Assembly: GCF_000378505.1 (NCBI RefSeq)
Contig: NZ_KB899992.1
Coordinates: forward strand, 124,001 to 188,000
Direction of reading: 5' to 3'
DNA length: 64,000 nucleotides
From: Modicisalibacter luteus DSM 23508
GTDB lineage: Bacteria > Pseudomonadota > Gammaproteobacteria > Pseudomonadales > Halomonadaceae
Numbering within the stretch: the stretch's first letter is position 1; every line of letters begins with the position of its first letter. The notes under the pieces were generated by a model. The model ran no database searches. It had not been told where the DNA came from and worked only from the letters and a program-made list of their open reading frames with translations. Positions 33,665 through 64,000 of the stretch are shown here, piece after piece. A program made the position numbers and the translations under genes.

Positions 33665-34444
33665 ATGGGGCTGGTAGCGCCACTGGCCATTGCGGCACTG
33701 CTCGGTGCCTGCATGGGGGCTTGGGCGCCCGCCGGAGCGTTTGGCGTGGTGGCGGCAATACTGCTGATTTGTCTGGCTGCCTCCCGTTACCTTGCCATTT
33801 TGTTGATCGCTGCTGCGTCGTTCAGTGCCGGTCAGGTCCTGATCGCGCGTGGTGCTGCCTTACCTGTAGGTCTCTCCGGCGAGGATCTGGCCGTGACGGG
33901 ACGTATCCTGGCCCTGAGTGACGAGGGGCGTTTCCAGCGCGCACGTATAATGGTGGCGTCGTGTCTACCCCTGAAGTCAGGCCGCGTATCTTGCGAGAGG
34001 TTGAGACACGTCAGGGTCAGCTGGTATGACGCACCCGCTCTGGCAGTAGGCGAGCGCTGGGCGCTGACGCTGCGCTTGCGCCCACCAGCCGGGTTCGCCA
34101 ACCCGGATACCTTCGATTACGGGGCCTGGCTGTGGCGCGAGGGCATTGATGCCACCGGCTACGTTCGTAACGCTCCGCCGCCGCAGCGCCTGGCCAATGC
34201 CAGGCCTGGCATTCGCGTGCTGGCTCTTGGGTTTCTTGAGGCGCATGCGCCGGAGGGAATGGCTCGGCGTTGGCTGGCGGCGCTGACGCTGGGGGCAGGC
34301 GAGCGCCTCGATGATAGTGTTTGGGCGTTGCTCAATGCCAGCGGGACAACCCACTTGGTGGTTATTTCTGGTCTGCATGTTGGCTTGGCGGCCACCTTCG
34401 TGCTGCTCTTGGCACGCGGTCTGGCGCGGTGTAGATTCCGGTAA
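33665..34444 (+). pseudogene. comEC: comEC, 5' part, interrupted by a transposon
   Basis: The first 255 or so codons of ComEC, the inner-membrane channel for DNA uptake in natural transformation. N-terminal membrane helices, the OB-type domain (VTGRILALSDEGRFQRARIM; VGERWALTLRLRPPAGFANP) and the start of the competence domain (GTTHLVVISGLHVGL) are present. The frame then leaves comEC at about 34429 and ends on a TAA inside the mobile element. The full gene should be over 700 codons. I chose ATG 33665, with AAGGA at 33652; an upstream in-frame ATG lies at 33614. No 3' part occurs in the window. Transformation should be lost unless another copy exists. Confidence 0.9.
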
Positions 34445-34482
34445 TTAATTGCAAAAATTCTAAATTTAATTGCAAATTTGCA
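34430..34482. repeat. Transposon end with TnsB-type binding repeats
   Basis: The end begins TGTAGATTCCGG. Two identical 11-bp repeats TTAATTGCAAA start at 34445 and 34466, exactly 21 bp apart, within similar flanks, as for TnsB sites in Tn7-like ends. CGCGG at 34425-34429 would be the 5-bp target duplication. A 12-bp palindrome AGTAAATTTACT at 34510-34521 lies further in, before the tnsAB start, and may be regulatory. Confidence 0.7.
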
Positions 34483-34631
34483 AAAGTACATAGCATAGAC
34501 TATTTGTTTAGTAAATTTACTTTCGTTATACCCTTGAAATATTTTACGCACAACAAGATTGGCGAAAGAAAGCATTGAGATTTGAAGCATATGGATAATA
34601 AGTAAATGCTATGCTATTAAGGTGCTTTGTT

Positions 34632-37205
34632 ATGTATAAGAGAAAAATAAAAGCATCTCCTGTAAAGGATTTATATAAAGTGCCAAGCCATAAGAATGGT
34701 TCGGTGATGCTAGTAGAGTCATGGCTGGAAAGGAATGCTTGCTACTACCTTGAATACAGTACTAGTGTTGAGGGTTATGAATCTCAGCCTTATGGTTTTT
34801 ATTATTCCTATAAAGGGAAGATTTTTCCATATACTCCTGATTTTAGAGTAATTGATTATATAAGAGGCGATTTTTATATAGAAGTAAAAAGTAGCATCTC
34901 GTTAAATGAGGGCCCTTTAACAGAAGATTTTTTCAACCGTTTTGAAAGTAAAGTTGCGGCTGCAAAGAAGCTGGGATATGAGCTTTTATTGGTGACGGAT
35001 AGACAATTAAATGCGGCCCCGTTAATCGATAACCTAAAGCTTTTAAGGCGGTATTCAGGCTATGGAGAATCTACCCCAGAGCACGCTGATGTTCTTGCGG
35101 CGGTCAGGTCGGCGGAAAAAGTATCAATTGGAGAAATAGTCAAAAACTTAGGGATGGACTATGACTCAGTATTTGATATCGTTCTAGGTTATATTGCTAG
35201 ACATGAGTTGTTCATAAATCTTATGAAGTTAGATATCAGTGCTGATTCAATCGTTTCGTATAAAGAATTATCTTCAGAGGATGGAGGGCTGAATTCGTCA
35301 CCTTGTGATGAGTTTGAGGAATTTTTTAAAGTTAATACAAGGCGCCCGAGAAACAAGTTTTTTTGTATCGATAATTTTAATGAGCTGGGCAACGGAAATA
35401 AAGAATGTGAGTGCTTGCTAGAAGAAAAACCTTTCAATGATGATCTCAGGAAAGTGGCGGTAAAAAGATTGCAGTACATTAAATATATAGAAAAAAATAT
35501 AAGAGGTGGCTGGACCAAGAAAAATATTGAACCATTGTTGGAAGAGATTCGTAAGAGCGTTTCTGAACCAGTGCCAAGCTGGAGGACACTGGTTTATTGG
35601 AGAGAAAGGTATCTGAGCGCTGAAGGAGGAATAGGCTCTTTGATACCAAAGTTTCACCATAGGGGAAGACGCGAAGATAGAACTAGTCATGAAGAGTTAG
35701 AATGTTTCAATAGGTCGGTCGACGAAAAATTCCTAAGGTTAGAAAGGTTAAGCGTAATAAAGTGCTATAGATATTATTTATCCCTAGTTGCGAAACTTAA
35801 TTGCACGCTAGAGTCATCTGCTCAGATAGGCCCTGTGTCTTTAAGTGCCTATTATGCCAGAATAAAAAAACTACCCCAGTATGATGTAGTAGCTGCTAGA
35901 TTTGGAAAACAATTTGCTGATAAACAATTTAGAGTCGTGGGGTCACACGTTCCACTTACGAGAGTGATGGAGCGTGTAGAGATGGATCACACTAAGTTGG
36001 ATGTTTTTCTGATTGACGATAGCTTGGATGTCATATTGGGGCGGCCTTACTTAACAGCAATGATTGATTCTTACAGTGGTTGTATAGTAGGCATCTATCT
36101 TAGCTTTTCTCCTCCTAGCTATTTGTCGGTAAGTAGCTGCCTTTTTAACGCATTGAGGAATAAAGAATCAGTTCTTTCAAACTATGAGGAGGTGGAAGGG
36201 GAGTGGCCATGTGAAGGTAAAATCGAAACTTTGGTTGTAGATAACGGCAAGGAATTCTGGAGTAAAAATATGGAGTTCGCATGTGCTTCTTTATCTACCG
36301 AAGTTCAGTACAACCCTGTAAGGCAGCCTTGGTTAAAACCTAAAGTCGAGCGTATATTTAAAACCATTAATTCAGATTTTGTACATACAGTGCCTGGTAC
36401 ATGCTTTTCCAATGTTGCGGAAAAGAAAGAATATAACCCCGAAAAGCACGCTGTGATGAGGTTTTCGGATTTTATGGAGGCGCTACACATATGGATTGTT
36501 GATATTTATCATTGCAGTCCTGGTTTAAAGTGCTCGTTTCCCCCTATCTATAGATGGATGGAAAGCGTGAAAGATAGGCCTATTAAAAAGTATGAAAAAA
36601 GCGAAGAAAAAAAACTTAAAGTTGAGCTCGGGGTGACTGAGTTTCTGAAGCTTCAGCAATCAGGGGTAGAGTTTAGAGGTGTAAGATATACTAATAAAGA
36701 ACTGGTTGAGTTCATGAAAGAAAGAAAGGTGGGGGATAAAGGTAAAAAAGTGTTAGTGAAAATAGATCCTCATGATATTACAAGTGTTTATATTTATAAT
36801 GATATTAGCAATAAGTATTTTAAGGTTGATTCAGTTTCCCCGTCCGGATATATGCGGGGCCTTTCGCTTTTCGAACATGAGGTATGCCGGAGGTATGTAA
36901 CAAGACTTCTACATAAGATTGTAGATGATAGCTCTCTTATGCGGGCTCGGGAAAGAATTCATCGAAAAATTGATAATGCAGTTAGGTCAGGCGATAAGCT
37001 TAAAAAGGGCTATAGGAAGGTTGTTGGGAGTGCTGTGGCAGCAAGGTTTAGCGGGATAAGTAGCGATAACCAGAGGTCATTAATAGATATAAATAAAGAA
37101 GAGCAAGAAATTAAGTTGTTAACTGAAAATGATAAGAGTTTGTCAAAAAATGAGGGCGAAGACTCGATCATTGGGAGGAATTGGGATGATGTGGAGCCCT
37201 ACTGA
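34632..37205 (+). CDS. TnsA-TnsB fusion transposase
   Basis: One 857-residue protein joins both Tn7-type strand-cutting enzymes. The N-terminal TnsA endonuclease domain (about 1-150) has SWLERNACYYLEYS, YTPDFRV and FYIEVKSS, giving likely catalytic Glu33, Asp70 and Glu84-x-Lys86; it would cut the 5' strand. The TnsB part has an RNase H-like DDE domain with Asp452 (EMDHTKLD), Asp537 (VVDNGKEF) and Glu573 (KPKVERIF). 35 residues separate the last two, as in the DDE family. I chose ATG 34632, with AAGGTG at 34619-34624. The gene is strikingly AT-rich next to comEC. Its stop overlaps tnsC. Natural TnsAB fusions are known in type I-B CASTs. Confidence 0.92.
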   Translation: MYKRKIKASPVKDLYKVPSHKNGSVMLVESWLERNACYYLEYSTSVEGYESQPYGFYYSYKGKIFPYTPDFRVIDYIRGDFYIEVKSSISLNEGPLTEDFFNRFESKVAAAKKLGYELLLVTDRQLNAAPLIDNLKLLRRYSGYGESTPEHADVLAAVRSAEKVSIGEIVKNLGMDYDSVFDIVLGYIARHELFINLMKLDISADSIVSYKELSSEDGGLNSSPCDEFEEFFKVNTRRPRNKFFCIDNFNELGNGNKECECLLEEKPFNDDLRKVAVKRLQYIKYIEKNIRGGWTKKNIEPLLEEIRKSVSEPVPSWRTLVYWRERYLSAEGGIGSLIPKFHHRGRREDRTSHEELECFNRSVDEKFLRLERLSVIKCYRYYLSLVAKLNCTLESSAQIGPVSLSAYYARIKKLPQYDVVAARFGKQFADKQFRVVGSHVPLTRVMERVEMDHTKLDVFLIDDSLDVILGRPYLTAMIDSYSGCIVGIYLSFSPPSYLSVSSCLFNALRNKESVLSNYEEVEGEWPCEGKIETLVVDNGKEFWSKNMEFACASLSTEVQYNPVRQPWLKPKVERIFKTINSDFVHTVPGTCFSNVAEKKEYNPEKHAVMRFSDFMEALHIWIVDIYHCSPGLKCSFPPIYRWMESVKDRPIKKYEKSEEKKLKVELGVTEFLKLQQSGVEFRGVRYTNKELVEFMKERKVGDKGKKVLVKIDPHDITSVYIYNDISNKYFKVDSVSPSGYMRGLSLFEHEVCRRYVTRLLHKIVDDSSLMRARERIHRKIDNAVRSGDKLKKGYRKVVGSAVAARFSGISSDNQRSLIDINKEEQEIKLLTENDKSLSKNEGEDSIIGRNWDDVEPY

Positions 37206-38227
37206 TGAGCGATGATCAAGATGTGATAGCCAAAAAATTAGCGAGCTTCCATGACTGTTTTGTGCCTTGTAAAGCAATTAATGAGGTAATTAATGATTTT
37301 GCTGAACTGCGTGATAAATGGAGGTTTGGTGGAGAGCAAGAATGCATGTTAATAACGGGTGAATCAGGTTCGGGGAAAACTTTTGCAGTAAAGGAATATA
37401 TGAAATCCTGTCTCCCTTTCCGCGAAGGTGATATTGTCAATACTCCTGTGTTGTTTAGTAGGATACCAAGTGATGTATCATTAAAAAACACAATGCTCGA
37501 GTTGCTTGGAGATTTAGGGCAGTTTGGGATGTCCTATAGGGAAGGTAGGAGTGGTAATTCCAGTCTTACTGAAAGTCTTATAAATCTATTAGGTAAGTGT
37601 AAAGTCCAGCTAGTTATTATTGATGAGTTTCAGGAGTTGTTGGAGTTTAAGACAAGGAAGGAGGTGCAAAGAATAGCTAACAGGTTAAAGCTGATTAACG
37701 ATAAAGCTAATATTCCTATAGTTTTAATGGGCACTCCTATATGTTTGGCTATTGCAAAAGAGCCGCAATGGTCTTCAAGGTTGATTAGGAGAAGGAATAT
37801 TCCTTATTTTAGTATTAAGGATGAATGTGATGACGCAGAGTTTGTGGGCGTTTTAAAAGGCCTCGCGAATAGAATGCCTTTTCGTGAACCTCCTGAACTA
37901 CATAGAGACGAGATGCGTCTGCCTCTCTTTGCAGCATGCAAAGGAGAAATGAGGCATTTGAAAAGGATATTGGAAAATGCTCTTAGCTTGTGCTTAAAGG
38001 AAGGAGGTGACTGCCTTAAAATTAATCATTTATCCAAAGCCTATGAGAAAGTAAGCAAAGGGAGGGCGTATAACCCGTTTAATGTAAAAAATATTTCTGA
38101 TATAAAGCTTGAGTTTGTTGAAAAAGGATCAGGGTATAAATATAGCTCTGATGGAGGTGAGATTGTTCCAGAAAATTTGGAGTATAGCAAACCTTTGTCT
38201 ATAGCCGAAGTTATACGAAGAAAATAA
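37205..38227 (+). CDS. TnsC AAA+ target-capture ATPase
   Basis: A 340-residue AAA+ ATPase with Walker A GESGSGKT (about 52-59) and Walker B VQLVIIDEFQELL (Asp140-Glu141), followed by RIANRLKLINDKANIPIVLM and the sensor region MGTPICLA typical of TnsC/TniB. In Tn7-like systems it forms filaments on DNA at the chosen target and activates TnsAB. It starts in the tnsAB stop codon (TGATG), so the two are coupled. As AT-rich as tnsAB; composition changes sharply just after its end. Confidence 0.92.
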   Translation: MSDDQDVIAKKLASFHDCFVPCKAINEVINDFAELRDKWRFGGEQECMLITGESGSGKTFAVKEYMKSCLPFREGDIVNTPVLFSRIPSDVSLKNTMLELLGDLGQFGMSYREGRSGNSSLTESLINLLGKCKVQLVIIDEFQELLEFKTRKEVQRIANRLKLINDKANIPIVLMGTPICLAIAKEPQWSSRLIRRRNIPYFSIKDECDDAEFVGVLKGLANRMPFREPPELHRDEMRLPLFAACKGEMRHLKRILENALSLCLKEGGDCLKINHLSKAYEKVSKGRAYNPFNVKNISDIKLEFVEKGSGYKYSSDGGEIVPENLEYSKPLSIAEVIRRK

Positions 38228-38340: not shown

Positions 38341-38891
38341 GGATGAGTCGCCCCGGGTCTTCTAGACACCCGCAACGCCTGTGAAGTGAGTGGTGCAGTG
38401 AGGCCGCCAGCAGCAGCGCCGCCAGGGCTTCCTGGTAGTCGCCGGTGGAGATCCCCTTCAGGTAGAGCCAAGGGTTCAGCTCCTCGATGCTGCGAGCTCG
38501 CTTCAGTTAGGGCGGCAGCAGGCTGCTGTTGAAGCGAGCATCACCGCCGCTGCGGTCACGCACCTTGGGCACCTGCACACTTACATCGCCGATTCCGGTC
38601 TGGATCGTGCGCTCGGGCAGGTAGCCGTTGCGGACCACTGCCTGGCGGCCATCGCCGAGACGCTGGTCGACATACTGCGCCAGAAAGGTGGCCAGTTCGG
38701 CCTCGATGGCCTTGGCGATCAGGTCACGAGCGCCTTGGCGCAACAGCTCGTGCAGTGGGTCAGTGATCTGTGGTTCTGATTGTGAAAGAGCCTGGAGGGT
38801 AGAATTGGCCATGGCGTATCCATTCCGTGTTGATTGTGATCTGGCGAGATCAATCAACAGGATACGCCACCTTTCCTATCTCCTCCCGTAC
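38341..38891 (-). pseudogene. IS256-family transposase remnant
   Basis: The N-terminal part of an IS256-type Mutator transposase: [20 protein letters not shown], then [18 protein letters not shown], then [12 protein letters not shown] stop codon interrupts the frame at LLPP, after which the same frame continues as LKRARSIEELNPWLYLKGIS and decays. About 130-170 of some 400 codons remain. AT the 5' side, GATAGGAAAGGTGGCGTATC (38864-38883, minus strand) is a likely left inverted-repeat region. It sits immediately after tnsC and marks the cargo boundary. Confidence 0.8.
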
Positions 38892-39022: not shown

Positions 39023-39035
39023 GGAGTGACCATTG

Positions 39036-39602
39036 ATGCCAGCCTCCAAGCGCGACCAGCTGCTCGCCACAGCCGAGCGACTTTTCTATGAGCAGGGATT
39101 CCACGCCACCGGTATCGACCGCATCGTGGCTGACGCTGGAGTGGTGCGCATGACGCTCTACAACCACTTCACTTCCAAGGAAGCTTTGATCATGGCCGTA
39201 CTGCAGGCCCGCCATGAACGCTTCATAGCTAGCCTCGATGCGGCTGCAACCTCGGCTTCGCCAGGCAACATGACACGGGCCATTATCGAAGCGCATGGCC
39301 GCTGGCTGGAACACTACAGCCAATATGGCTGCATCATGGTCAAGGCGATGGGCGAGTTCGCCGAGCACAGCACCGAGATTCATGCCTTGGCGGTGGCCGC
39401 TAAGACCGACCTGTTGGCACGCCTCGAGGCCGCCGTAACACGGGACAAGCTGGGCCATCACGACGGCTTGGCGCGACGTCTCTTTGTAGTACTGGAAGGC
39501 AGCAATACGACAGTGGCTCTGTTTGGCATACAGACGGCCCTGCTCGACACTCGGGCAGTGACCGACGCCCTGCTTGCAGCGGCCCGGAGCAGGACCTCAT
39601 GA
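39036..39602 (+). CDS. TetR family transcriptional regulator
   Basis: A 188-residue repressor with an N-terminal TetR helix-turn-helix (FHATGIDRIVADAGVVRMTL then YNHFTSKEALI) and a helical ligand-binding domain of the TetR C-terminal type. I chose ATG 39036, nine bases after AGGAG; TTG 39033 is possible. Its own promoter overlaps a palindromic operator. The neighbouring EamA-type exporter on the same strand, 178 bp downstream, is the obvious target. The inducer is unknown. Confidence 0.9.
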   Translation: MPASKRDQLLATAERLFYEQGFHATGIDRIVADAGVVRMTLYNHFTSKEALIMAVLQARHERFIASLDAAATSASPGNMTRAIIEAHGRWLEHYSQYGCIMVKAMGEFAEHSTEIHALAVAAKTDLLARLEAAVTRDKLGHHDGLARRLFVVLEGSNTTVALFGIQTALLDTRAVTDALLAAARSRTS

Positions 39603-39780
39603 AGCCCCGTCAGCGCTCGGGCAGGGGCGGGTCCTTTTTGTTACGCCTCTAATCGTACAGTGAATGTCGCTTTTAGGGTTCCCACACTGTCCCCTATAGC
39701 GGAGATGGTCAGCGGCTTGCGTGGCAGTGCGATATTCACCGCCCCCAACCGTTTGGTTTCAAGATAAAAGCGAGGTCAAA

Positions 39781-40668
39781 ATGGTAGGTGCGAGTACAGC
39801 TTTCGTGGCGCTGGCGGCTCTTTTCTGGGGGTTATCTGGTGGTATCGGCGGAATCCTTATGGCCGATGGCTGGGACGCGTTCGTGGTTTCATTCTACCGG
39901 GGTGCGATCGGGCTGCTGTGCGTCCTCGTTTGGCTAATGCTGCGTCCACACGGTAGTGGACTGGCAAATCGCCGGCTATGGTTCTGGTCAGTCATTGCCG
40001 GCGTCGGCGTAGCAGGTAACTTTTCGTTCTATTTCCTGAGCATCGCGCACGGCAGCGTTGCGGTTGCTGCTACGCTGATGTATTGCGCACCAGTGTTCGT
40101 ATATCTCGTGTCATTCGCTTTAAAGCTGGAAAAACCGACCCCGCTGAAGTGGGCCGCGATCGCGGTGGTAATGCTTGGTATCATGTTGCTTACGCAAATT
40201 TACGACGTCGGTGCGAGCGGCGTTACGGCGATTGGTGCAGGCGCCGGTCTGCTTGCCGGACTGTCCTACGCGATATTCATTTTCGGATTCAAGTATGCAG
40301 CACCACACGGTAGCCCGCAGGCTATTCTCTCAATAGCGTTTGTGGTGCTTGCCACCATCCTTATCTGGCCGAGCGATGCCGGCCAAACAGTTTCAGCTCT
40401 GAGCACACCGGATTGGCCGCTGTTCGCAGTGCTGGGTGTGCTCGGCGCAGGCTTGTCTTTCGTTCTTTATATTATCGGCCTGGAACATACTGCCCCGGCC
40501 GTGGCCTCGATTGTGGCAATGGTCGAACCGGTTACCGCGACGCTGTTCGGTGTCGTGGTGTTAAGCGAAAACCTAGTGGGTCCGCAAATTCTGGGTATGG
40601 GACTGATATTAGTCACAGTGACCGCGCTGAGCGTATATACGAGCTCTGGACGGCCAACTGCCGGATAG
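39781..40668 (+). CDS. EamA-family (DMT superfamily) exporter
   Basis: A 295-residue membrane protein with ten hydrophobic segments in two EamA repeats, for example TAFVALAALFWGLSGGIGG and SVAVAATLMYCAPVFVYLVS in the first half, and ASIVAMVEPVTATLFGVVV in the second. DMT carriers of this type export amino acids, metabolites or drugs; the substrate cannot be read from the sequence. I chose ATG 39781 with GAGG five bases upstream; a GTG at 39721 lacks a site. Codon use looks slightly less GC-rich than the neighbours, suggesting separate origin. Confidence 0.88.
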   Translation: MVGASTAFVALAALFWGLSGGIGGILMADGWDAFVVSFYRGAIGLLCVLVWLMLRPHGSGLANRRLWFWSVIAGVGVAGNFSFYFLSIAHGSVAVAATLMYCAPVFVYLVSFALKLEKPTPLKWAAIAVVMLGIMLLTQIYDVGASGVTAIGAGAGLLAGLSYAIFIFGFKYAAPHGSPQAILSIAFVVLATILIWPSDAGQTVSALSTPDWPLFAVLGVLGAGLSFVLYIIGLEHTAPAVASIVAMVEPVTATLFGVVVLSENLVGPQILGMGLILVTVTALSVYTSSGRPTAG

Positions 40669-40768
40669 AACCACTAGCTGATTAGCATTAGTGACCTTTT
40701 CCCAGAAACCGGTCCATCACCAATGTGAGGTTTCCGCTACGTTTACTCTGATAGCAGAAGATCTCGCG

Positions 40769-40909
40769 ATGAAGCGTAACCGACATACCGAAGAGCGGCG
40801 TGAGGTGAAGCACCTGGTGACAGATGGCCAGATTTTACCCCGTCGATGTCGATCAGGCAGCTGCGGCGGGATTTATGCAGCATTTCCTAAGGCTCAAGCG
40901 CGAATGTAG
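40769..40909 (+). pseudogene. Remnant of an IS3-type orfA
   Basis: The frame MKRNRHTEER resembles the start of many IS3-family OrfA transposases (MKRxRHTEEQI) and then loses similarity. The remaining 225 bp between the EamA and DsrE-like genes contain nothing else I recognise. Confidence 0.35.
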
Positions 40910-41199
40910 GCCCAGCCTTTGGTCTGGAGTTCGGCGAGGGTGACCACCGCCGCCTCGATCTCGACGAGCTCGCGGGTATTGTCGAGGCCCTGAGCCGAGA
41001 GTGAATTGCGACATAGCCGCAGCAGCGGATCAGCGGCATCGGGGATGGCCAAGGCGGCGGACACGGCGGCATTGGCGATAATCAATACCTCGGCATCGGG
41101 CCGGGCATTGCGCAAGTTGGCGGCATTACGTCGGGCGCGGGTCAGCGCCTCGGCCGAGGGCGCGTGAAGCAGGACATGAAGCTCCCTGAGTGGGGCCAT
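40894..41199 (-). CDS. DsrE-like small sulfur-relay family protein
   Basis: A 101-residue protein resembling the DsrE/DsrF-like family: ELHVLLHAPSAEALTRARRN, then NLRNARPDAEVLIIANAAVS, then LRLCRNSLSAQGLD and a C-terminal VVTLAELQTKGWAYIR. The single Cys in LRLCRNSL is where the family carries its reactive cysteine. Such proteins bind persulfide sulfur or act beside sulfonate or nitrate-type ABC transporters. It begins 2 bp after the stop of a decayed ABC ATPase gene, so it may be the intact survivor of a transport operon. Confidence 0.7.
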   Translation of the reverse strand: MAPLRELHVLLHAPSAEALTRARRNAANLRNARPDAEVLIIANAAVSAALAIPDAADPLLRLCRNSLSAQGLDNTRELVEIEAAVVTLAELQTKGWAYIRA

Positions 41200-41201
41200 G
41201 G

Positions 41202-41528
41202 TCAGTGGTTGCCGATGCTCGCCTCGACTTGCTGTACCAAGGGCGTGAAATCGGGATGGTCGCGGCGCTCGTCCAGCGGCAGCGGGACTTCGAAGGTCTC
41301 CACCACGCCGGCGGGCCGGTTGGGAGCGGCCTCGGTGCCGACCAGTTCCTGCTGGAGTCGCCGTCGGGTGATGGCGTCCAGCGCCGAGAAGGGCTCGTCC
41401 ATGAACAGCACCCGCGGACTAACGGCGAGCGCCCGAGCGATGCCGACCCGCTGCTGCTGCCCTCCCGAGAGAGTGCGGGGCCAGCGTTCAGCGAACTCGT
41501 CCAGTCCTACCAATGCCAGCGGTTCCAA
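41202..41528 (-). pseudogene. NrtD/TauB-type ABC ATPase remnant
   Basis: The signature [20 protein letters not shown] and Walker [21 protein letters not shown] are present, but the Walker A half is missing. After QQELVG the segment that should hold the H-loop is deleted, and the frame jumps to the far C terminus. It cannot be a working ATPase. It lies in line with a decayed substrate-binding protein gene. Confidence 0.8.
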
Positions 41529-41539
41529 GGCGCGACGGC

Positions 41540-42186
41540 GGCGCTCGGCTCTTCAACGAAATCCCGCACATGGGCTGCGGCGCGTTTGGGGTCTTCGACG
41601 AGCATCTTGGTGGCCTGCAGGTGCAGTGCCATTAATTCCTGCATCGCCTCGGGATGTTCCTGCAGAGCGCCTTCGCAAGCGGCCAGCACAGCGCCAGGCT
41701 GACCCGGTAACATAGCATCGGCGCGGGCCACCACGCGGGCCCCGTCGTTACGCTGCTGCACGGTGGTGAGGATCGGCTCGAGAATCGAGGCGGCATCCAC
41801 GGCACCCGCGAGCAGCGCCTGCTGGACACGATTGGCGCCCATGGCAACGATTTCCACCGCCTCCAGACCCACACCCAGACTCGATCAGCCAGAAACGCAG
41901 TACGGTGTCCGACACCGAGCCCTGGGGGAAAGTGGCGATCTTTGGCTTGCGGCCCTCTGTCTCGGTGAAGCTGGCGATCGCTTTTGCCGCATCATTGTTG
42001 GCACGTTCGAAATGGCCCGCCCCCTATTTTGTGTTCCTTGCCCATCACTCCTCCTTGAGTTCGTGCCGTTTTGGTCGAGACTCTTACGGGTAAAATGCCA
42101 ATTTTCAGAGTTGCCGTGTGCTGGGCTCCAGCCATGGCTGTATGCAACGCATCTCGATCAATATCGCGTCTCACAGTGAGCGGCAC
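41540..42186 (-). pseudogene. NrtA/TauA-type substrate-binding protein remnant
   Basis: Pieces of a periplasmic substrate-binding protein occur in order but in different frames. A likely N-terminal TLKIGILPV lies near 42.1 kb, KIATFPQGSVSDTVLRFWLI near 41.9 kb, and VGLEAVEIVAMGANRVQQAL, AGAVDAASILEP then ALQEHPEAMQELMALHL at 41.5-41.9 kb. At least one frameshift lies near 41880. With the ATPase remnant it forms the wreck of a nitrate/sulfonate/taurine-type uptake operon. Confidence 0.7.
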
Positions 42187-42227
42187 GGTGCGAGTTGTAC
42201 ACCCTCCCGAAACATGCGCTCAGCAGA

Positions 42228-42686
42228 TCAACGTACCATCATGAGAGCTTTGCTGGCTCGCTCGTGAGCACTGGCTGTTCCGGAGGCTGGCAAACCACCA
42301 AAATCCCCTCGCAGCGCCTTGAGCGCGTAGCGTTCCTGATCGATTTCCTTTGAGGTGCGTATCCCACGTCTGCGGAAAAAGATAATCGGGGGGCACCATC
42401 CCTGCAGAGCATGTTGCAGTAAAAAGCCTGTCACGGCAGCCGGTAGCAAAAGCCAGCGTTTATCGTGTGTCGCTCCGAGGGTGATACCGGCCAAACTGAG
42501 CGCTGCTGCATTCGCTTCCAGGGTGCGTTCGATATCCCAATCGTGGTCCAACTCATGCAATCGCCGCTCGATCTCGTGAGGGTTTTCAGCGAAGTAAGCG
42601 ACATTCTCTTCTGTTTGCTGGCGTATATGCCGGTTTACGCTATCAGCTGTATTACGCTCCACCCGTGATGTCGTGGAAGGCAGCAT
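42228..42686 (-). CDS. DUF2892 (YgaP-like) membrane protein
   Basis: A 152-residue protein. The soluble N-terminal part (VNRHIRQQTEENVAYFAENP; RRLHELDHDWDIERTLEANA) precedes two hydrophobic segments (AAALSLAGITLGATHDKRWL; LLPAAVTGFLLQHALQGW) matching the DUF2892 fold, which in YgaP accompanies rhodanese domains. No rhodanese domain is present here. AAGGAG lies just before the ATG at 42686. It is divergent from dsbD; function unknown, but sulfur chemistry is a recurring theme around it. Confidence 0.7.
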   Translation of the reverse strand: MLPSTTSRVERNTADSVNRHIRQQTEENVAYFAENPHEIERRLHELDHDWDIERTLEANAAALSLAGITLGATHDKRWLLLPAAVTGFLLQHALQGWCPPIIFFRRRGIRTSKEIDQERYALKALRGDFGGLPASGTASAHERASKALMMVR

Positions 42687-42951
42687 ATCAATCTCCTTGG
42701 TTTTCGAATGGCTTAAAACCCACCCTATTGCAACAAGTATGAGGAACTAGCATATGCATAGAACTCAACCAGAAGGTAGCTGACAGCCCCTATGAGAGAA
42801 GGGCAGGAATAAAAAAGGCACGAAAAGACAAGCAACTTAACAGCCCTTTTTTCCTGACACGCGACGGCCAACCCCTGAGAAAGCCGAGTAACTAACGTTG
42901 AGTTAATCCAGGCCTGACACACTGGCGCTTTCGCGTGTTCAGGAGAGCTTT

Positions 42952-45635: not shown

Positions 45636-45661
45636 TCCCTCCCTGCAAGGAAATGTGTGTA

Positions 45662-46420: not shown

Positions 46421-46476
46421 CCCAGGGCAGCCAGCCGGCTGGCTGCCCTATGCCTCAACGAACGGAGAGGAACTGA

Positions 46477-51655: not shown

Positions 51656-51760
51656 GATTACCTTTAAGTTGTCTTAAGCGATAACCTTGTACGCTGCAAA
51701 GATTGCGGCAACAAGCAAGGAGCGGCACCCATTAACAATGACTGACGAGCTTGGTAACCT

Positions 51761-52258: not shown

Positions 52259-52438
52259 GATGCATCTCCTTCCATTCAGTATGTTGAGTCAGGTAACGGC
52301 CATACGGCGCAAATACCCCGTTTTCGACAGGCTAGGAAAGCTTCGGGACGCTTGCCATGATTTCTGGCAGGCGGGAGCTGTTTAGTTTTCTTCGCCCCAG
52401 TGCCGTGCTCCATGCGTTAAGCCAGGGTGACCTCCCTA

Positions 52439-52852: not shown

Positions 52853-52854
52853 GT

Positions 52855-53322: not shown

Positions 53323-53329
53323 GAAACCA

Positions 53330-55120: not shown

Positions 55121-55125
55121 GCTGT

Positions 55126-55566
55126 TTAGCGTCCTGACTTCGCCTGGTTTGCCTGCTGCTCGAGACGCTCACGTAGGGGCTCCAGATCGTAGCCGGCGGA
55201 TTGGGCAGCCTCGATGAGCTCCGGAACGGGGCGATGCGCTGCTTGTGACAGAGCCCAAAGATGCGCAACGCGCTTGCCCGAACGGCAGAAGCCAAGAACG
55301 GGGCTAGGGGAACTATTCAATACGTGGGCGAAGCTCTCGATATCAGCTTGGGAATATTCACCCGGCTTGACCGGAACTTCATGCCAGGCCATGCCCAAAG
55401 ATTCCGCCTTGGCTTTCAGAGCATCAGGATCCGGCTGGTCTTCGCTTTCGCCCCGTGGCCGGTTGGAGAGGATCGTGCCAAACCCCTGAGAAGCAAGCTG
55501 CTCAAGCTCACTGATTTGGGGCTGCGCAGTTACGCTCAATCGGTCATCAAGTGGTTTGATATCCAT
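55126..55566 (-). CDS. DUF442/TIGR01244 phosphatase-like protein
   Basis: A 146-residue protein of the beta-lactamase-hydrolase-like phosphatase group (TIGR01244). It carries VTAQPQISELEQLASQGFGT near the N terminus and the cysteine loop LGFCRSGKRVAHLWAL. In other bacteria the domain is fused or adjacent to persulfide dioxygenase (Blh), as here, and may act as a sulfurtransferase. It starts 20 bp after the dioxygenase gene. Confidence 0.87.
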   Translation of the reverse strand: MDIKPLDDRLSVTAQPQISELEQLASQGFGTILSNRPRGESEDQPDPDALKAKAESLGMAWHEVPVKPGEYSQADIESFAHVLNSSPSPVLGFCRSGKRVAHLWALSQAAHRPVPELIEAAQSAGYDLEPLRERLEQQANQAKSGR

Positions 55567-55586
55567 GATTTCCTCACTTCGCTCAA

Positions 55587-56498
55587 TTAGTTGCGTGCTT
55601 CATCCCAAGCGGCGCCGGGTAGCGCATCAAGCGGGATCTTAAGATAACGCCGGCCGTTAGCCTCCGGTTCCGGCAAGTCGCCGCCACGAATGTTGACCTG
55701 TAGGGACGGCAGGATCAGCTTCGGCATGGGCAACCCAGCATCCCGTTCGTTGCGCATGGCCACGTAGCCTTCGAGGGTCTGACCGTTACAGAGGTGGATG
55801 TTGGTCTCGCGCTGGCAGCGTACGGTGCTTTCCCACTCCGGTTCGCGACCGCCGGGCATGTAATCATGCCCCGTAAAAAGCCGGGTATCGTCTGGTAGCG
55901 CTAGAATGGCTTGGATGGAGTCCCAAAGCTTGTGCGCATTGCCCCCGGGAAAGTCGGCACGTGCCGTCCCGCCGTCAGGCTGGAACAATGTGTCGTGAAC
56001 AAAGGCGGCGTCCCCTACCACATATGTGATCGAGGCCAGTGTGTGCCCCGGTGAGAACATTACGCGGCCCTCGATCTCCCCGACTCTGAACGTGTCATCT
56101 TCGCTGAACAGGTGATCCCACTGACGGCCATCAGCCGGAAAGTCAGGCCAGTGATAGAGGTCTTTCCACAGCGCCTGGACTTTCGTGACATAGCTTCCAA
56201 TTGCCGTGGGTGCTCCGGTCTTTTCTTTCAGGTACTGCGCCGCTGAGAAATGGTCGGCATGAGGATGGGTGTCGAGAATCCACTCCACCTCTAATTGCTG
56301 AGTTGCCACGTAGTCCAGTAGCTCGTCGGCATGGTGCGTTGCGGTGGCTCCAGACTTTTCATCAAAGTCCAGAACCGGGTCGATGATCGCACAGCGTCGG
56401 GTCGTTGGGTCGCTGACCACATACTGCACACTTGAAGTTCGTGTTTCATAGAAGCCAGCCACGTCTGGCTTGCCAGGTGAGTGTCGAAAGGTTTGCAT
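55587..56498 (-). CDS. Persulfide dioxygenase, metallo-beta-lactamase fold
   Basis: A 303-residue MBL-fold enzyme of the ETHE1/Blh type that oxidises glutathione persulfide to sulfite. The iron-binding motif DTHPHADHFSAAQYLKEK, a later His in SPGHTLASITYV, the Asp in DAAFVHDTLFQPDGG and a C-terminal TGHDYMPGGR are in place. GAGGA precedes the start. First gene of the operon, followed by DUF442, SulP and the YeeE pair, a layout known from sulfide-detoxifying bacteria. No adjacent BigR-type repressor was seen. Confidence 0.9.
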   Translation of the reverse strand: MQTFRHSPGKPDVAGFYETRTSSVQYVVSDPTTRRCAIIDPVLDFDEKSGATATHHADELLDYVATQQLEVEWILDTHPHADHFSAAQYLKEKTGAPTAIGSYVTKVQALWKDLYHWPDFPADGRQWDHLFSEDDTFRVGEIEGRVMFSPGHTLASITYVVGDAAFVHDTLFQPDGGTARADFPGGNAHKLWDSIQAILALPDDTRLFTGHDYMPGGREPEWESTVRCQRETNIHLCNGQTLEGYVAMRNERDAGLPMPKLILPSLQVNIRGGDLPEPEANGRRYLKIPLDALPGAAWDEARN

Positions 56499-57003: not shown

Positions 57004-57935
57004 TGTGTGGTCCCGAAGAGTAATGGTTTGGATCGTCATAAAACCTTTCGTGCTTTTTCTGCCATAGCTCAAGAATTAATCCAATTGGTGTTTTGCCCTT
57101 GCGCGCCCTAAGTGGCCGGGCACTGTTATAGGTCTATAGGTAATTATTCAGGTGAGACTGAAGCTGACTCAGAGAGGTGTAATGGAATGCTCGGGTTGTT
57201 GCATCCTTGATGGTGCGGTTCATCCGTTCCACCTGTTCGTTGGTCCTAGGGGGGAAGGGCTTCATCAGCCGATGCTCGATGCCGTGGCGGTAACAGGCGA
57301 CATCGAAGGTATGCGGCTTGTAAGCCTCTGTCCCGGCCTTCTTTGCGAACTGCACTCCATTGCCTGTCTGCACCGTATGGACGTGGTAAGGCAGGGCCTG
57401 CAGCGTGTCTTCGAGAAAGTCGGCGGCGATTTGCTTCGTCATTTGTCGATACAGCTGGGTATGAACGAACTTGGAGGTGCGGTCCACGGAGACGAACAGA
57501 TAGGCCTTGCTCTCACCTGTGCGGACTTCACTGATATCCATGTGCAGGTACCCGACCGGGTAACGCGTGAACGGCTTTTGCTCGCGTTTCTGGTCGCCAG
57601 CCCTTGGCAACTGACTGATGCCGTGACGCTGGTAGAGCCGATGCAGGCTTGAGCGGGTTAGTGAGAGAATTTCTCACTGAAGCGCACGAAGGCAGTCATC
57701 GAGGGGGAACAGGGTCTTCTGCCGAAAGGTCGGCAGCGGCTTCCTCCAGGCGTCAGCGACGTGGAGCGAGGGGCCCTGGGGCCCTCCGGGTGTCTTGTAG
57801 GGTATCGCGGTTGCGCCACTTGCTTACGGTCTTGGGGTTGATGCCGTAGCGGCGGCTCAGCGTCGCGGCCGACTCCGTCAATCGCTGGATTTCTGCTCGG
57901 ATGGGGTGCGTGGTCGTGGCGCGTTTATGAAAAAT
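57004..57935 (-). pseudogene. IS481-family transposase remnant
   Basis: An IS481-type transposase read in pieces. The N-terminal HTH part (SAATLSRRYGINPKTVSKWR) lies near 57.83 kb. The integrase core YLHMDISEVRTGESKAYLFV, then VERMNRTIKDAT, is at 57134-57610, and the C-terminal NSARPLRARKGKTPIGLILE follows an in-frame stop at about 57.13 kb. The second catalytic Asp is lost: TGNG replaces TDNG. There are frameshifts and stops in the N-terminal half. Inactive. It marks the cargo edge just before the xre gene. Confidence 0.85.
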
Positions 57936-58240: not shown

Positions 58241-58286
58241 TTGCGGTCTTAACGGCCACGGACTATAATCCGCATTTTGCGATCGC
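58241..58286 (+). promoter_or_regulatory. Promoter of the accessory/tniQ-cas operon with candidate Xre operator
   Basis: TTGCGG (58241-58246), 17 bp, TATAAT (58264-58269) form a good sigma70-type promoter reading toward 58313. The palindrome GCGATCGC at 58279-58286 lies about at the transcription start and is a candidate repressor site. Confidence 0.55.
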
Positions 58287-58312
58287 TATGGCTTTCCCAT
58301 CTCAGGTGCTGC

Positions 58313-58906
58313 ATGAAATCTCGACCCTTTCCGCTCGATCAGCGCCTTCACGACCTGCTTATGCAGGAGGGTTACGCTGCCTTCACCATCCCACAGCTGC
58401 GAGATGCTTACGCGGAGCAGATCAGGGAATTCAAATTCGATATCAAGGACTTGAGAAGATACCTATACGGCTATATCAATCGCATGATCCGAAGTGGCTG
58501 GGTTGAGCGGGACGCTGAGCGGCGTGCGCATGGTCAGGTATACCACATGCGGGAGAAGCCTAAAGGACTGAGAGTCAAACTGATCTCTCCGGGCTTTGAA
58601 GCTAAGCTTTATATCAACGAGCCGAAAGCCACACATGCCTTGTCTTCAGGCAGGCAGAAAAATTCAATTAAGCAAGATCCCAACCCGGTTGCAGGCCTTG
58701 CAGCTCAATGCAAGGAAACCCAGCTGGATATGCTAAGTAGCTTGGGCGAGGCGGAGAAATATAAGAGCCTGATGGTGGAACTGCCCCAGATCGCTGACGC
58801 GTTGGAAGCGGAATACCTCGATGCTCGTCATCGCAGCTCTCGTCTCTTGGGACAGCTTCGTGCTCTGGAAAAAACGCTGCAGACCCTGCAAGGGAATGGC
58901 ACATGA
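58313..58906 (+). CDS. Winged-helix-like CAST accessory protein, unknown function
   Basis: A protein of about 197 residues. The N-terminal 90 residues (RLHDLLMQEGYAAFTIPQLR; RRYLYGYINRMIRSGWVERD; GQVYHMREKP) look like a winged helix with a beta wing. The middle is basic and probably disordered. The C-terminal 60 residues (LEAEYLDARHRSSRLLGQLR) predict a coiled coil. I do not recognise the family. I chose ATG 58313, with AGGTG upstream, rather than ATG 58277. Its stop overlaps the helicase start (ATGA), so the two proteins likely work together. Confidence 0.75.
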   Translation: MKSRPFPLDQRLHDLLMQEGYAAFTIPQLRDAYAEQIREFKFDIKDLRRYLYGYINRMIRSGWVERDAERRAHGQVYHMREKPKGLRVKLISPGFEAKLYINEPKATHALSSGRQKNSIKQDPNPVAGLAAQCKETQLDMLSSLGEAEKYKSLMVELPQIADALEAEYLDARHRSSRLLGQLRALEKTLQTLQGNGT

Positions 58907-60282
58907 AGCTACGCCAGTGGCAAAGCCGCTGTATTGATCAGGCCGTACTGCAACTGAGTCCGCAGTCTCCCCATTTTTTCTGCCAGGCTACACCAGCAGC
59001 GGGCAAGACGCGCATGGCTGCCGGGTTGGCGTTGGCCTTACTCAAGGCTGGCCGAATCGACTTGGTGATCTGTTTTGCTCCTTCTCGACAAATCGTTGCA
59101 GGGATCCAGAGCACCTTTGCTGATGTGCTGGGCAGGCGGCTGGATGGAGCCATAGGTGCCGTCGGAGCAACCTATACCTACCAGGCCATGCCATTTCTTG
59201 ATGCTTCATTCTGGCAATTGCTTGATCAGTACCGGGTATTAGCAGTCTTTGTTGAAATCCATCACTGCGCAGGTGGTGATCCTGTAATAAGCAACCGATG
59301 GGGGCAGGAGATCCTCCAGCGGGTGCAGGATCGAGCGACCTATACACTAGCATTGTCCGGAACGCCTTGGCGCTCTGATGAGCGTTGTATTGCTCTGGCC
59401 CGCTATTCAGATCCACATGGGACGCTGGTTTGCGATTATAGCTATGGGCTGGAGGCGGCCGTCAGGGATGGCGCTTGTCGGTCGCCTCGGATTGTGTTGC
59501 TGGATAATCAGCAGGTCAGACTGGAGCTGCAGGAGAGTCAGGCCAGGGAAACGAAAGAGTTTGGCAGTGTGGGCTGCCTGTTGCGTGAGTCTCCGGTCAC
59601 CTATGAGGATTTGTTGCACCATGAAGATATCATGGTGCGGCTACTGAATCTTGCGTTAAAAAAGCTGACAGAGGTTCGAAGCCACGTAGCCGATGCGGGC
59701 GGGCTGGTAGTGGCCACGGATGTTGAACATGCACACCTCATCGCCAGCTATCTAGCAAGAATGGGGGAGGACAGCATGATCGTTACTTACCGGTCGCCTG
59801 ATGCCCAGAAACGTATCGAAATCTTCCGCCATGGCAAGACAAAATGGATTATCTCGGTTGGCATGATCAGCGAGGGGACCGACATCCCACGTTTGCAGGT
59901 ATGCTGCTATCTGAGTCGCATCAGGACAGAAATGTATTTTCGTCAAGTTCTGGGGCGGATTTTAAGAAGGCGGCAAGACAATGATAACCATGCTTGGTTA
60001 TATGCGCTTGCCGAGCCGATGATAAAACGCTTTGCAAAAAGAATAGCAGACGATTTGCCAAGTGATTTGGCGGTGCTGTCCAAAGTAAAAGAAGAAAAAT
60101 ACAAGCCGGAAGAAAATCCAGGTCAGGCTAACCATGAAGCTTCCCATCAGCTGCGTTACAGCTCACGTTTAGAGGGGGAGAGGCATGAGAAAAATGGAGA
60201 GGCGTCCTCCAGCCCTTCAGTGGTGTGGATGGAGGTGTACTTCTCTCAGCAGTACCGGCAGCAACTGTTGGCGGTTTACTGA
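58903..60282 (+). CDS. SSL2-type superfamily 2 helicase
   Basis: A 459-residue DEAD/DEAH-class helicase. It begins MKLRQWQSRCIDQAVLQL and has Walker A ATPAAGKTRMAAG, motif III-like LSGTPWRSDE, motif IV/V region (IISVGMISEGTDIPRLQVCC) and motif VI FRQVLGRILRR. Motif II reads VFVEIHHCAGG: the metal-binding Asp of DExH is Val, a one-base change from GAT, while Glu and both His remain. This may weaken ATP hydrolysis. It overlaps the winged-helix gene by 4 bp and precedes tniQ by 49 bp on the same strand. A role in transposition or in defence is possible; neither is shown. Confidence 0.85.
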   Translation: MKLRQWQSRCIDQAVLQLSPQSPHFFCQATPAAGKTRMAAGLALALLKAGRIDLVICFAPSRQIVAGIQSTFADVLGRRLDGAIGAVGATYTYQAMPFLDASFWQLLDQYRVLAVFVEIHHCAGGDPVISNRWGQEILQRVQDRATYTLALSGTPWRSDERCIALARYSDPHGTLVCDYSYGLEAAVRDGACRSPRIVLLDNQQVRLELQESQARETKEFGSVGCLLRESPVTYEDLLHHEDIMVRLLNLALKKLTEVRSHVADAGGLVVATDVEHAHLIASYLARMGEDSMIVTYRSPDAQKRIEIFRHGKTKWIISVGMISEGTDIPRLQVCCYLSRIRTEMYFRQVLGRILRRRQDNDNHAWLYALAEPMIKRFAKRIADDLPSDLAVLSKVKEEKYKPEENPGQANHEASHQLRYSSRLEGERHEKNGEASSSPSVVWMEVYFSQQYRQQLLAVY

Positions 60283-61576: not shown

Positions 61577-61580
61577 AAAA

Positions 61581-63665
61581 ATGCATATTAATGACATCCT
61601 TAATATTCAAGACGTGAGGGAGCGCTCAGATTCGCTCAGAAAGTGCTTTTGTCCTTATAGTGAGTTAGTCGATGTAACGGGGAGCGAAGCGTCTGCTGTA
61701 ATCGTTTTGATAAACTTGTCGGTGAAGAAAGGAATCGTAGAAGACCTTTCCAGCAGGAAATCAGCGCAACAGTTACTGGCTGACAAAAAGCACCTGCTGT
61801 CCTGCATTAGAGAAATAGGTTGGCAGCATAGCCACAACCTCAAGCATCCAGACGCAAGGGTTTCTGGTGGACGAATAATGGTGAATCCACCGCTTAACTA
61901 TGCAGGATATATATCATCCAATGCTTTGGAAAAAGAGTTTGGATGGTCCCATGATTCCAAAACCTACAATACTGCAAAAATGTTCTGCGCAGCCTTTCTA
62001 TGGAATGGGTGCGTAAATAACCTGTCAATGCTTCTTAGCGAAGGATACACGGTATGGCGAGATGCTGTACGGTCCCTTGGGTTGAAAGGAAAAAAATTTG
62101 AAGAGTTGGTAGGCGCTATTAATAAGTGCATTGCATATCCTTTACTTCCTAATGAGGTAAGCCAGTTTTCCCCTCAGGTACGCTTCTTTTATCAAGGAGA
62201 TTACGTGGCGGTAACGCCAGTAGTTTCTCATGCCATGATGGTCTATATTCAACGGCTTGTAAGAAGAAAAGTATGTTCCTCTGTTGGGTTAGGCTTTCCC
62301 CGTCCTGCGTCTATTGGTGACTTGGCAGGGTCTGTGGGAGGGCACATCAATGCATTGTACTATCCCCCTCGCCTCAAAAGGCAAGCTAATGGTGGCCTAT
62401 CAGAGGCAAGGGTTCATGCCATAATGCAAGGTAAGCACTTTTTCTATAAAAGTTGCCTCTCTGATGATGGTTTTCTAGCTGCATGTGAGGTTCTGGTAAA
62501 TGCGAAGCGCTTTTCAACTGATCGGGTAAGGCGACAAGAGAAGAGGCATGCAGCTTCTAAGATAAAAAGCACGTTGAGAGAATGGTTGTCCCCAGCTTAC
62601 GAATGGCGAGAAATTTTCAAAGGAAAAATTGAAGGTTCTTCCTTTAAGCTGTTAGATAGCCTCGAATGGCGAATCTCCTCACTAGAAGGCAATCCACCGC
62701 CGGCCCTTGTGCGAGAATTGAATATTGTCCTAAATGACCAACTGGGTAGCTATTCTAAAGCAAGGCGGTTTGCATACCATCATGAGTTGATGATGCCTTT
62801 CAAGGCAATCCTGAGGGGCAGTTTAAAGGCGAGTGGCTTTAGAGAGGAACTGGTATCCAAGTCGAACTGGGACGAAGGTGGTCGTGGCTTATATATTTAT
62901 CTGAAAAACATCCAAGTTTACGATGCTTTGGCAATGGCCAACCCTTACCTCTGCGGGATCCCTTCTTTAACTGCCTTGTGGGGACTAACCAAAGAATACG
63001 AAATTAAATTAAAAGCACTGTCACATACCTCTTTGAAATTTGATGGGGTGGCATGGTTTCTGCGTGAGTATCAGGAACGGGGTGACATAAAGATTCCTGC
63101 CCCAACCAAGCTGGCAAGGGAGCCCGGCAGGCTGATGCGGTCCGGGCTGCTGCCTGCTCGGTTCTGTGACATGGTGATGGATGTAGTCATTCGAGTAAGT
63201 GATCCTGACATTGAGCTAGCGGCGATTGAGCCTCACCTGTTACAGGCAGCATGCCCGGGTCGATTTGCAGGAGGCGTGTTGCATCCCCCCGGGCTGCGAG
63301 ACGAACGTCATTGGTGTCAGGTAGCGGAGGGTAATGGTTTATTTAAGCAGTTGCGGCGATTACCGCGTAGTGGGCGCTGGGTAACTCCTGGATCTATGCA
63401 GTCTGACAGCCTGTTTGAAACTTTAGAACTGTGTAATAAATTCAGTGATTTAAGGCCTGTATCGGCAGGGTATGCATTGCTAGAAGATCCCATTGGGCGG
63501 GCGGGAAGCGTGATGGAACAACATGCTTTTGCTGAGTCACTGATTAGCCTGGCACATCTGGTCTCGCCGATCGTATATCGTTGGGAAGGGTGGAAGGCGT
63601 TTACGCAGCAGGCGTTTTGGGGGATGCGTCCAGAAAACCGCGCTATGCTGATGTCAAAAGCCTAG
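61581..63665 (+). CDS. Cas8f-Cas5f fusion of the type I-F3 Cascade
   Basis: A 694-residue large subunit that binds the 5' end of the guide and reads the PAM. Aligned by eye with V. cholerae Cas8/5, shared blocks are ASAVIVLINLSVKKG, EKEFGWSHDSKTYNTAKMF, YVAVTPVVSHAMM, CGIPSLTALWGLTKEYE, CPGRFAGGVLHPP and SAGYALLEDPIGRAG. The order shows the Cas5 part embedded in Cas8, as in I-F3. It is a little longer than its Vibrio relative. I chose ATG 61581; earlier in-frame codons lie inside tniQ. cas7 follows 11 bp downstream. Confidence 0.94.
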   Translation: MHINDILNIQDVRERSDSLRKCFCPYSELVDVTGSEASAVIVLINLSVKKGIVEDLSSRKSAQQLLADKKHLLSCIREIGWQHSHNLKHPDARVSGGRIMVNPPLNYAGYISSNALEKEFGWSHDSKTYNTAKMFCAAFLWNGCVNNLSMLLSEGYTVWRDAVRSLGLKGKKFEELVGAINKCIAYPLLPNEVSQFSPQVRFFYQGDYVAVTPVVSHAMMVYIQRLVRRKVCSSVGLGFPRPASIGDLAGSVGGHINALYYPPRLKRQANGGLSEARVHAIMQGKHFFYKSCLSDDGFLAACEVLVNAKRFSTDRVRRQEKRHAASKIKSTLREWLSPAYEWREIFKGKIEGSSFKLLDSLEWRISSLEGNPPPALVRELNIVLNDQLGSYSKARRFAYHHELMMPFKAILRGSLKASGFREELVSKSNWDEGGRGLYIYLKNIQVYDALAMANPYLCGIPSLTALWGLTKEYEIKLKALSHTSLKFDGVAWFLREYQERGDIKIPAPTKLAREPGRLMRSGLLPARFCDMVMDVVIRVSDPDIELAAIEPHLLQAACPGRFAGGVLHPPGLRDERHWCQVAEGNGLFKQLRRLPRSGRWVTPGSMQSDSLFETLELCNKFSDLRPVSAGYALLEDPIGRAGSVMEQHAFAESLISLAHLVSPIVYRWEGWKAFTQQAFWGMRPENRAMLMSKA

Positions 63666-63676
63666 GAGTAGACTGT

Positions 63677-64000
63677 GTGATCGAACTCGCTAGAAACCTT
63701 AGCTATCGCAGATCGTTGTCACCAGGAAAAGCCGTCTTTTTTTATAAAACGAAGGATAGCGAGTTTGAGCCGCTGGAGGCTGAGAGCAGCCGGTTGCGTG
63801 GTGTCAAGGCCTCGTTTTCTGAAGCCTATGACGGAGAAGGCAAAACCAAAAATGATGATGCAGTAGGAAAGCTGCCATTTGGCAATCCGATCTTCATCGA
63901 ATCCTGTTTTGTGCCTCCGCTAATTGAACACATGTATTGTCGTTTTTCCCTCCGTGCTGAGTCAAATGTAATGCAGCCTCTGGTGTGCAGCGATTTAGCA
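63677..64000 (+). CDS. Cas7f (Csy3) backbone subunit, partial
   Basis: The first 108 codons run to the window edge. The GTG start at 63677 gives IELARNLSYRRSLSPGKAVF, then FGNPIFIESCFVPPL and CRFSLRAESNVMQPLVCSD, matching the Cas7f N terminus, for example NLAYERSIDPSDVCFF in V. cholerae. Cas7f polymerises along the guide RNA spacer. The ATG-less start is supported by the 11-bp spacing to cas8/5 and the alignment. The remaining two-thirds, and cas6f, lie outside. Confidence 0.92.
   Translation, partial: MIELARNLSYRRSLSPGKAVFFYKTKDSEFEPLEAESSRLRGVKASFSEAYDGEGKTKNDDAVGKLPFGNPIFIESCFVPPLIEHMYCRFSLRAESNVMQPLVCSDLA

Follow-up and report, generated by a model that had tools for sequence, protein, structure and literature searches.

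A type I-F3 CRISPR-associated transposon within comEC of Modicisalibacter luteus, with a guide to a conserved ComEC motif and a tns block of different history

Introduction

A stretch of 64,000 nucleotides from Modicisalibacter luteus DSM 23508 (contig NZ_KB899992.1, here C4:124001-188000, of a 4.5-Mb genome; hereafter the window) carries tnsAB, tnsC, tniQ and cas genes next to a truncated comEC, the gene of the DNA-uptake channel. The locus raises the question of whether these genes make up one complete CRISPR-associated transposon (CAST), and of what led it into this host gene. The window ends inside cas7 and the contig continues to 341,316 bases; the element was completed by reading past the edge (locus L002, C4:186001-206000; L002 position + 62000 gives the window coordinate). 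Our answer is that the locus is very probably a complete type I-F3 CAST with an I-F3b-like targeting module, homed into comEC by RNA guidance.

A complete element between two halves of comEC

The transposon occupies window coordinates 34430-65822 (31,393 bp; Table 1) and splits comEC cleanly. NCBIfam ComEC_Rec2 matches both halves of the gene, above the model cut-off in the second half only. Beyond the window edge, cas7 runs to its end and is followed by cas6f, a short array (three repeats, two spacers), an ACA end and the second half of comEC. A sequence-only reading of the window had proposed a type I-F3 CAST in a Halomonas-like host, with intact key residues, a TGT end with TnsB-type repeats and about 20 kb of cargo. 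Each of these was found: tnsAB, tnsC, xre, tniQ, cas8f-cas5f and cas7f are all present, the TnsA-type E/D/ExK residues, the TnsB DDE motif (at about 459, 544 and 580) and the TnsC Walker A and B motifs are in place, the TGT end starts at 34430, and the cargo lies between tnsC and xre. The cas6f gene and the short array with an atypical guide, predicted to lie to the right, are there as well. After cas6f come the array, the end and comEC, instead of cas1 and cas2-3 without a transposon end, and no second end appeared between tnsC and tniQ with the motifs scanned. Two predictions fared less well: the far end belongs to another type instead of being an inverted TTAATTGCAAA, and the predicted CGCGG duplication is CGCGG on the left only, the right copy being CGCGC. 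The comEC target, the encoded homing guide and the differing end types had gone unseen. Cas1, Cas2 and Cas3 were not recognised among the open reading frames of window 33400-64000 and L002 1-12000 (by reading and partial HMM scans; no genome-wide search was made for them); Csy2 has a single match in the whole genome.

The last spacer of the array, which precedes a diverged repeat (loop GTAA versus GCATA, with an altered 3′ part), matches comEC at 24 of 32 bases, and its second-best non-self match in the 102 kb examined reaches 19/32. The mismatches, at positions 3, 10, 12, 15, 18, 24, 27 and 30, fall on third codon positions in seven of eight cases, the eighth changing Val to Ile; read as codons, the guide gives THLIVISGLH and the gene THLVVISGLH. 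Four of them occupy every-sixth positions, which are reportedly flipped out in such complexes (PMC12774636). The insertion point follows the protospacer 49 bp downstream, and the tnsAB end is the one nearest the target. The same article gives 49 bp for VpCAST, also of type I-F3, and PMC12452197 places the att gene at the tnsA-near end of I-F3 elements. It is the position of the match, not base matching, that makes the guide convincing on sequence grounds.

Spacer 1 has no such target: with up to three mismatches it matches only the array itself in its own genome, and against plasmids and phages no match covered 80% of it, with E-values of 3 or worse. Two other interpretations of the site were discarded. 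comM as the target, in the manner of Tn6022/AbaR-like elements, was rejected because the target is comEC and the frame that holds the genome's comM match is unbroken; the host dprA frame is uninterrupted too. An origin of the left comEC flank in another species was also rejected, the left and right flanks being almost equally close to genome G149 (80.7% and 82.1%).

Recurrence at comEC and other homing sites

Among 275 family genomes searched with Cas8, 14 had a match, M. luteus itself (G000) included. The closest element belongs to a genus-mate. The Halomonas-like host of the sequence-only reading holds, but the extension of host range that it saw in this is a minor point, since that many family genomes have a Cas8 match. 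The closest element, 79,985 bp long, is found in Modicisalibacter muralis DSM 14789 (G145, locus L031), a member of Halomonadaceae. It occupies the same comEC site, again 49 bp from the protospacer and with a CGCGC/CGCGC duplication, and its guide differs from that of M. luteus at 3 of 32 bases. comEC is present in all 14 genus genomes, as a single frame of 778-810 aa in 12 of them and split only in the two element carriers. The protospacer is kept in all 14 (21-24/32 to the M. luteus guide, C at −2), and a pattern covering both comEC guides (up to three mismatches) was found in two of the 275 family genomes, only in the arrays of these two species. The genes, the array, the guide match, the 49-bp spacing, the broken frame and the recurrence in a second species can all be read directly from the DNA.

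Relatives in the family have other homes. An ffs-type guide occurs in 9 of the 14 Cas8 loci (one confirmed beside the SRP RNA by Rfam, others by reading). In G091 and G110 (L094 12598-13626 and L095 3843-4835) the guide corresponds to the beginning of a 3-hydroxyisobutyrate-dehydrogenase-type gene; the element lies upstream, leaving the coding part intact. In G157 (L071 3933-4600), a 21,959-bp I-F3 element lies inside the frame of a DUF72 gene (guide 28/32, 49 bp, AAAGC/AAAGC); landing inside a gene is therefore not unique to comEC. These three other guide types likewise match DNA outside the tnsA end.

Two loci hint at further rearrangement. In G241 (L025 about 7296-7950) a tnsA fragment directly follows the array-side end and the duplication, as though a tandem insertion of a second element at ffs had later decayed. 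In G224 (L024 about 5700-7100) a transposase gene appears to lie between cas6 and the homing spacer (at 7092).

The viral contigs contained no Cas8 relative and the genome contigs a single locus, that of M. muralis. In the order sample, 17 of 390 gave Cas8 matches at E up to 0.001, mostly weak and partial, with strong matches in four other genomes (G499, G357, G582 and G453, the last partial only). The class sample yielded 1/303 for Cas8 at 1e-20, which is M. luteus itself, and 2/369 for TnsAB at 1e-60, M. luteus included. A plasmid-borne relative from Photobacterium damselae was considered as a carrier of the same guide and rejected: only the repeats are common, and the best guide match is 18/32.

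Based on these observations, the last spacer next to the diverged repeat would give rise to a crRNA loaded into a Cas8/5-Cas7-Cas6-TniQ complex. The loaded complex would bind the codons of the conserved ComEC motif THL(V/I)VISGLH and recruit TnsC and TnsAB, which would insert the element 49 bp downstream, its tnsAB end being the closer one to the target. The insertion breaks ComEC because both the protospacer and the insertion point lie inside the reading frame. The break should stop DNA uptake and might thereby protect the element from replacement by transformation; we infer this benefit to the element by analogy. The argument that broken DNA uptake shields an inserted element derives from studies of comM and further transformation genes (PMC10293859 and PMC11472951).

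The strongest competing view is that comEC is merely a convenient non-essential landing site, and that DNA uptake was lost without benefit to the element. We regard this as having close to an even chance of being correct. The homes of the family relatives, at ffs, upstream of the dehydrogenase gene and inside the DUF72 gene, have no link to competence and speak for it. Against it, the transformation gene comM has been targeted independently by other Tn7-like elements and by a I-B1 CAST (PMC11406308 and PMC10293859). A guide internal to comEC means that landing itself breaks the DNA-uptake channel, and the open question of whether mobile elements gain by switching off transformation can be put to the test with a programmable element.

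Mosaic structure of the element

The two parts of the element group differently. Trees of Cas8 (100/100) and TniQ (91/80) pair M. luteus with M. muralis and then with G091 and G110. In TnsB and TnsC, M. muralis shares 71% and 78% identity with G091/G110, and M. luteus only 43-45% with all three. The AU test rejects a grouping of M. luteus with M. muralis for TnsB (p 0.0005) and TnsC (p 0.007), while the alternative of all four in a single clade passes for TnsB (p 0.257) and narrowly fails for TnsC (p 0.046). Several branches of the TnsB and TnsC trees are long. GC content is 38% in the tns block (tnsAB, tnsC and the adjacent end), 46% in tniQ-cas and 59% in the cargo. TGT and ACA are both present, and both ends have repeats, but of differing type: TGTAGATTCC...TTAATTGCAAA on the tnsAB side and, read inwards, TGTCGTTTGCAGCATAA on the array side, the latter end being like that of M. 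muralis. Furthermore, tnsA and tnsB are fused in M. luteus and separate in M. muralis, G091 and G110; G241 has another fusion. The sequences indicate that the block of tnsAB, tnsC and right end (RE) has a history different from that of the tniQ-cas-array block. Rows of the identity table cut short by the choice of start or frame are disregarded; they are tnsA of G091/G110 (28 aa), the Vpen helicase (73 aa) and cas7 (36 aa), Ptor cas7 (7 aa), and, from THAF, a partial tnsB and a cas8 with a split frame. THAF was omitted from the TnsB and Cas8 trees and G803 from that of TniQ, and the trees contain no VchCAST row.

A similar exchange is seen in the ffs group. G241 and G206 have tniQ and cas8 nearly identical to those of G242 and G228, but a different RE and different tnsABC (grouping of G241 with G242 is rejected, AU p 1.7e-5). 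Both retain the array-side end type common to the group and have perfect duplications, and so hybrids with a swapped block appear able to move.

Several points weigh against a complete element brought in by its own guide. The target duplication is imperfect (4/5), whereas 9/9 other elements with both ends read have perfect duplications. This copy may have lost its mobility, given its unlike ends. Judged on base matching only, the guide match is modest, with about 0.04 chance sites this good expected per genome in M. luteus; the M. muralis guide matches its own comEC at 22/32, which is not significant alone since about two such sites are expected by chance per genome, and a 21/32 site exists elsewhere in the 92 kb read. 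Finally, complex assembly and transposition are only what known I-F3 biology would predict.

Some of these points could be explained by a composite formed in place: a CAST with fused TnsAB and unrelated ends would have inserted beside an older element of M. muralis type at comEC or undergone recombination with it, and a deletion would have fused the two, leaving immobile debris of two homing events. The differing ends and GC contents, the imperfect duplication, the truncated transposase gene just after tnsC and the AU rejections agree with such an origin, as does the low TnsB/TnsC identity of M. luteus to its nearest tniQ-cas relatives, which share 71-78% mutually. Yet scanning for the motifs of both end types revealed no remnant end between tnsC and xre (a diverged end could escape such a scan), and the ffs-homing hybrids G241 and G206 suggest that hybrids can move as units. 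The AU results for one clade leave room for the block to stem from a sister lineage on a long branch, and the CGCGG/CGCGC difference could be one point mutation. On balance, we consider a composite formed in place somewhat improbable, and favor insertion of the element as a unit, guided to comEC. That the comEC insertion was a chance or TniQ-only event and the likeness of the last spacer to comEC accidental is highly improbable: the match is imperfect and sites as good as that of M. muralis are expected by base matching, but it has the correct position, orientation and 49-bp spacing in two genomes and codon-shaped mismatches, and family elements with other guides adjoin the genes that those guides match.

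Altogether, we tentatively suggest, as a possibility that falls a little short of likely, that a Modicisalibacter I-F3 CAST lineage uses a codon-tolerant guide against the most conserved ComEC motif, so that homing itself switches off natural transformation, as an RNA-guided counterpart of comM-breaking Tn7-like elements; and that Halomonadaceae CASTs repeatedly swap the whole end-plus-tnsABC block and keep the tniQ-cas-guide block, the hybrids staying mobile. The mosaic provides natural comparisons (G241 and G206 versus G242 and G228), where nearly identical TniQ-Cas modules are combined with highly dissimilar TnsABC and ends, useful for asking which contacts among TnsC, TniQ and the ends must match.

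Gene content and cargo

Coordinates are collected in Table 1. The cargo is not common as a block to the M. muralis or g8 elements, and plasmid matches cover at most 6% of it. Its part at 42952-56498 is rich in disulphide-bond (Dsb) and sulphur-related genes, SulP included. The gene of the metallo-beta-lactamase-fold protein adjoins that of the BLH phosphatase, and the two neighbours perhaps serve persulphide handling. The small protein and ResIII-like helicase with xre nearby recur in the I-F3 elements of G091, M. muralis and G260; the helicase and small protein are also present in two Vibrio plasmid I-F3 elements, and the helicase in G157. In the plasmid element of Vibrio sp. THAF190c the helicase gene equals that of the window in length, with a small open reading frame before it.

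Table 1. Features of the comEC locus in window coordinates (L002 coordinates where stated)
Feature	Coordinates	Strand	Remarks
comEC, 5′ part of interrupted host gene	33572..34429	+	Pfam DUF4131; Competence PF03772 positions 1-47
Homing-guide protospacer in comEC	34349..34380	+	codes THLVVISGLH; −2/−1 bases CA
Target-site duplication	34425..34429; 65823-65827	.	left copy CGCGG; right copy CGCGC
tnsAB-proximal transposon end (RE)	34430..34486	+	TGTAGATT and TTAATTGCAAA-type repeats, spacing ~21 bp; starts TGT
tnsAB fusion, 864 aa	34611..37205	+	Mu-transpos_C above cut-off, rve below; PDB PseCAST TnsAB E 2.6e-158
tnsC	37205..38227	+	TniB, AAA_22; PseCAST TnsC E 6.2e-66
Truncated Mutator-family (IS256-type) transposase	38507..38857	-	cargo left border; Pfam Transposase_mut profile positions 7-85/379
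Cargo	39033..56498	.	TetR, EamA, DsbD, TlpA-like, DsbC/G-like, cytochrome c, histidine kinase + response regulator; 58.6% GC
Cargo, continued	within 39033..56498		methyltransferase, metal-resistance-like, DUF6691/sulphur transport, SulP, BLH phosphatase, metallo-beta-lactamase-fold protein
Integrase-core transposase fragment	57134..57610	-	cargo right border; Pfam rve, rve_3
xre-family regulator, 76 aa	57974..58204	-	Pfam HTH_3; 66% identity to G091 xre
209-aa protein + DEAD/ResIII-like helicase	58277..60282	+	pair occurs in other I-F3 elements too
tniQ, 414 aa	60332..61576	+	Pfam TniQ; PDB AsCAST TniQ 333.6 bits
cas8/cas5 fusion, 694 aa	about 61581..63665	+	Cas_Csy2; PDB PseCAST + AsCAST Cas8
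cas7f	63605 to 64711	+	crosses window edge at 64000; start codon not fixed
cas6f	64729-65346		beyond window
Array, 3 repeats/2 spacers	65500-65648		repeats 65500-65527, 65561-65588, 65621-65648 (last diverged)
Spacer 1	65528-65560
Homing (last) spacer	65589-65620
Array-proximal transposon end	up to 65822		ACA
comEC, 3′ part	L002:3798-5345, running to window 67348		Competence PF03772 positions 51-268

Comparison with known systems

The genes are those of an I-F3 CAST (tnsA, tnsB, tnsC and tniQ with a cas8/5 fusion, cas7f and cas6f), as are the short array with a last spacer matching the att site and the insertion distance of about 49 bp. In the placement against I-F3a and I-F3b that had been called for at the outset, TniQ scores 333.6 bits to AsCAST versus about 139 to VchCAST, and Cas8 464.6 versus about 114; both proteins thus lean to the I-F3b side rather than I-F3a. 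The homing crRNA with a diverged (atypical) repeat is an I-F3b trait as well. The usual I-F3b att site, ffs or rsmJ, is replaced here by comEC; in PMC11406308 that rule is worded as 'mostly' and is not absolute. For I-F3 the same article gives as main sites guaC, yciA, ffs and rsmJ, and it adds a branch of parE type and I-B1 elements guided to comM; PMC12774636 puts 94% of I-F3 homing events at yciA, ffs, guaC and rsmJ, and PMC12452197 adds cobO and others in Shewanella. In the CAST and Tn7 literature covered, neither comEC as a CAST site nor Halomonas I-F3 elements came up; the main I-F3 att-site surveys (Petassi 2020, Klompe 2022) lie outside that coverage and may contain a comEC entry.

Among individual systems, the M. 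muralis element is the nearest: besides the comEC site, the spacing and a near-identical guide, it shares 69% identity in Cas8, 71% in TniQ and 75% in Cas7. It differs in its length, separate tnsA and tnsB, matching ends, perfect duplication and TnsB (43%). Tn6900/AsCAST (I-F3b, Aeromonas salmonicida pS44-1) has the same order tnsA-tnsB-tnsC-xre-tniQ-cas8/5-cas7-cas6, with identities of 44% for TniQ, 47% for Cas7 and 37% for Cas8, but its tnsA and tnsB are separate and its att site is ffs (PMC12774636). PseCAST from Pseudoalteromonas provides the nearest solved TnsAB, TnsC and Cas8; its solved TnsAB is an artificial fusion, in contrast to the natural one here. With respect to the target, the I-B1 CAST subgroup with a comM crRNA is similar in that RNA directs it into a transformation gene's coding sequence (PMC11406308), although it belongs to another CRISPR subtype and uses comM instead of comEC. 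Tn6022/AbaR and Tsy elements likewise break the transformation gene comM via a conserved motif, as described in PMC10293859, but are guided by a protein (TnsF), whereas the M. luteus element would be guided by RNA.

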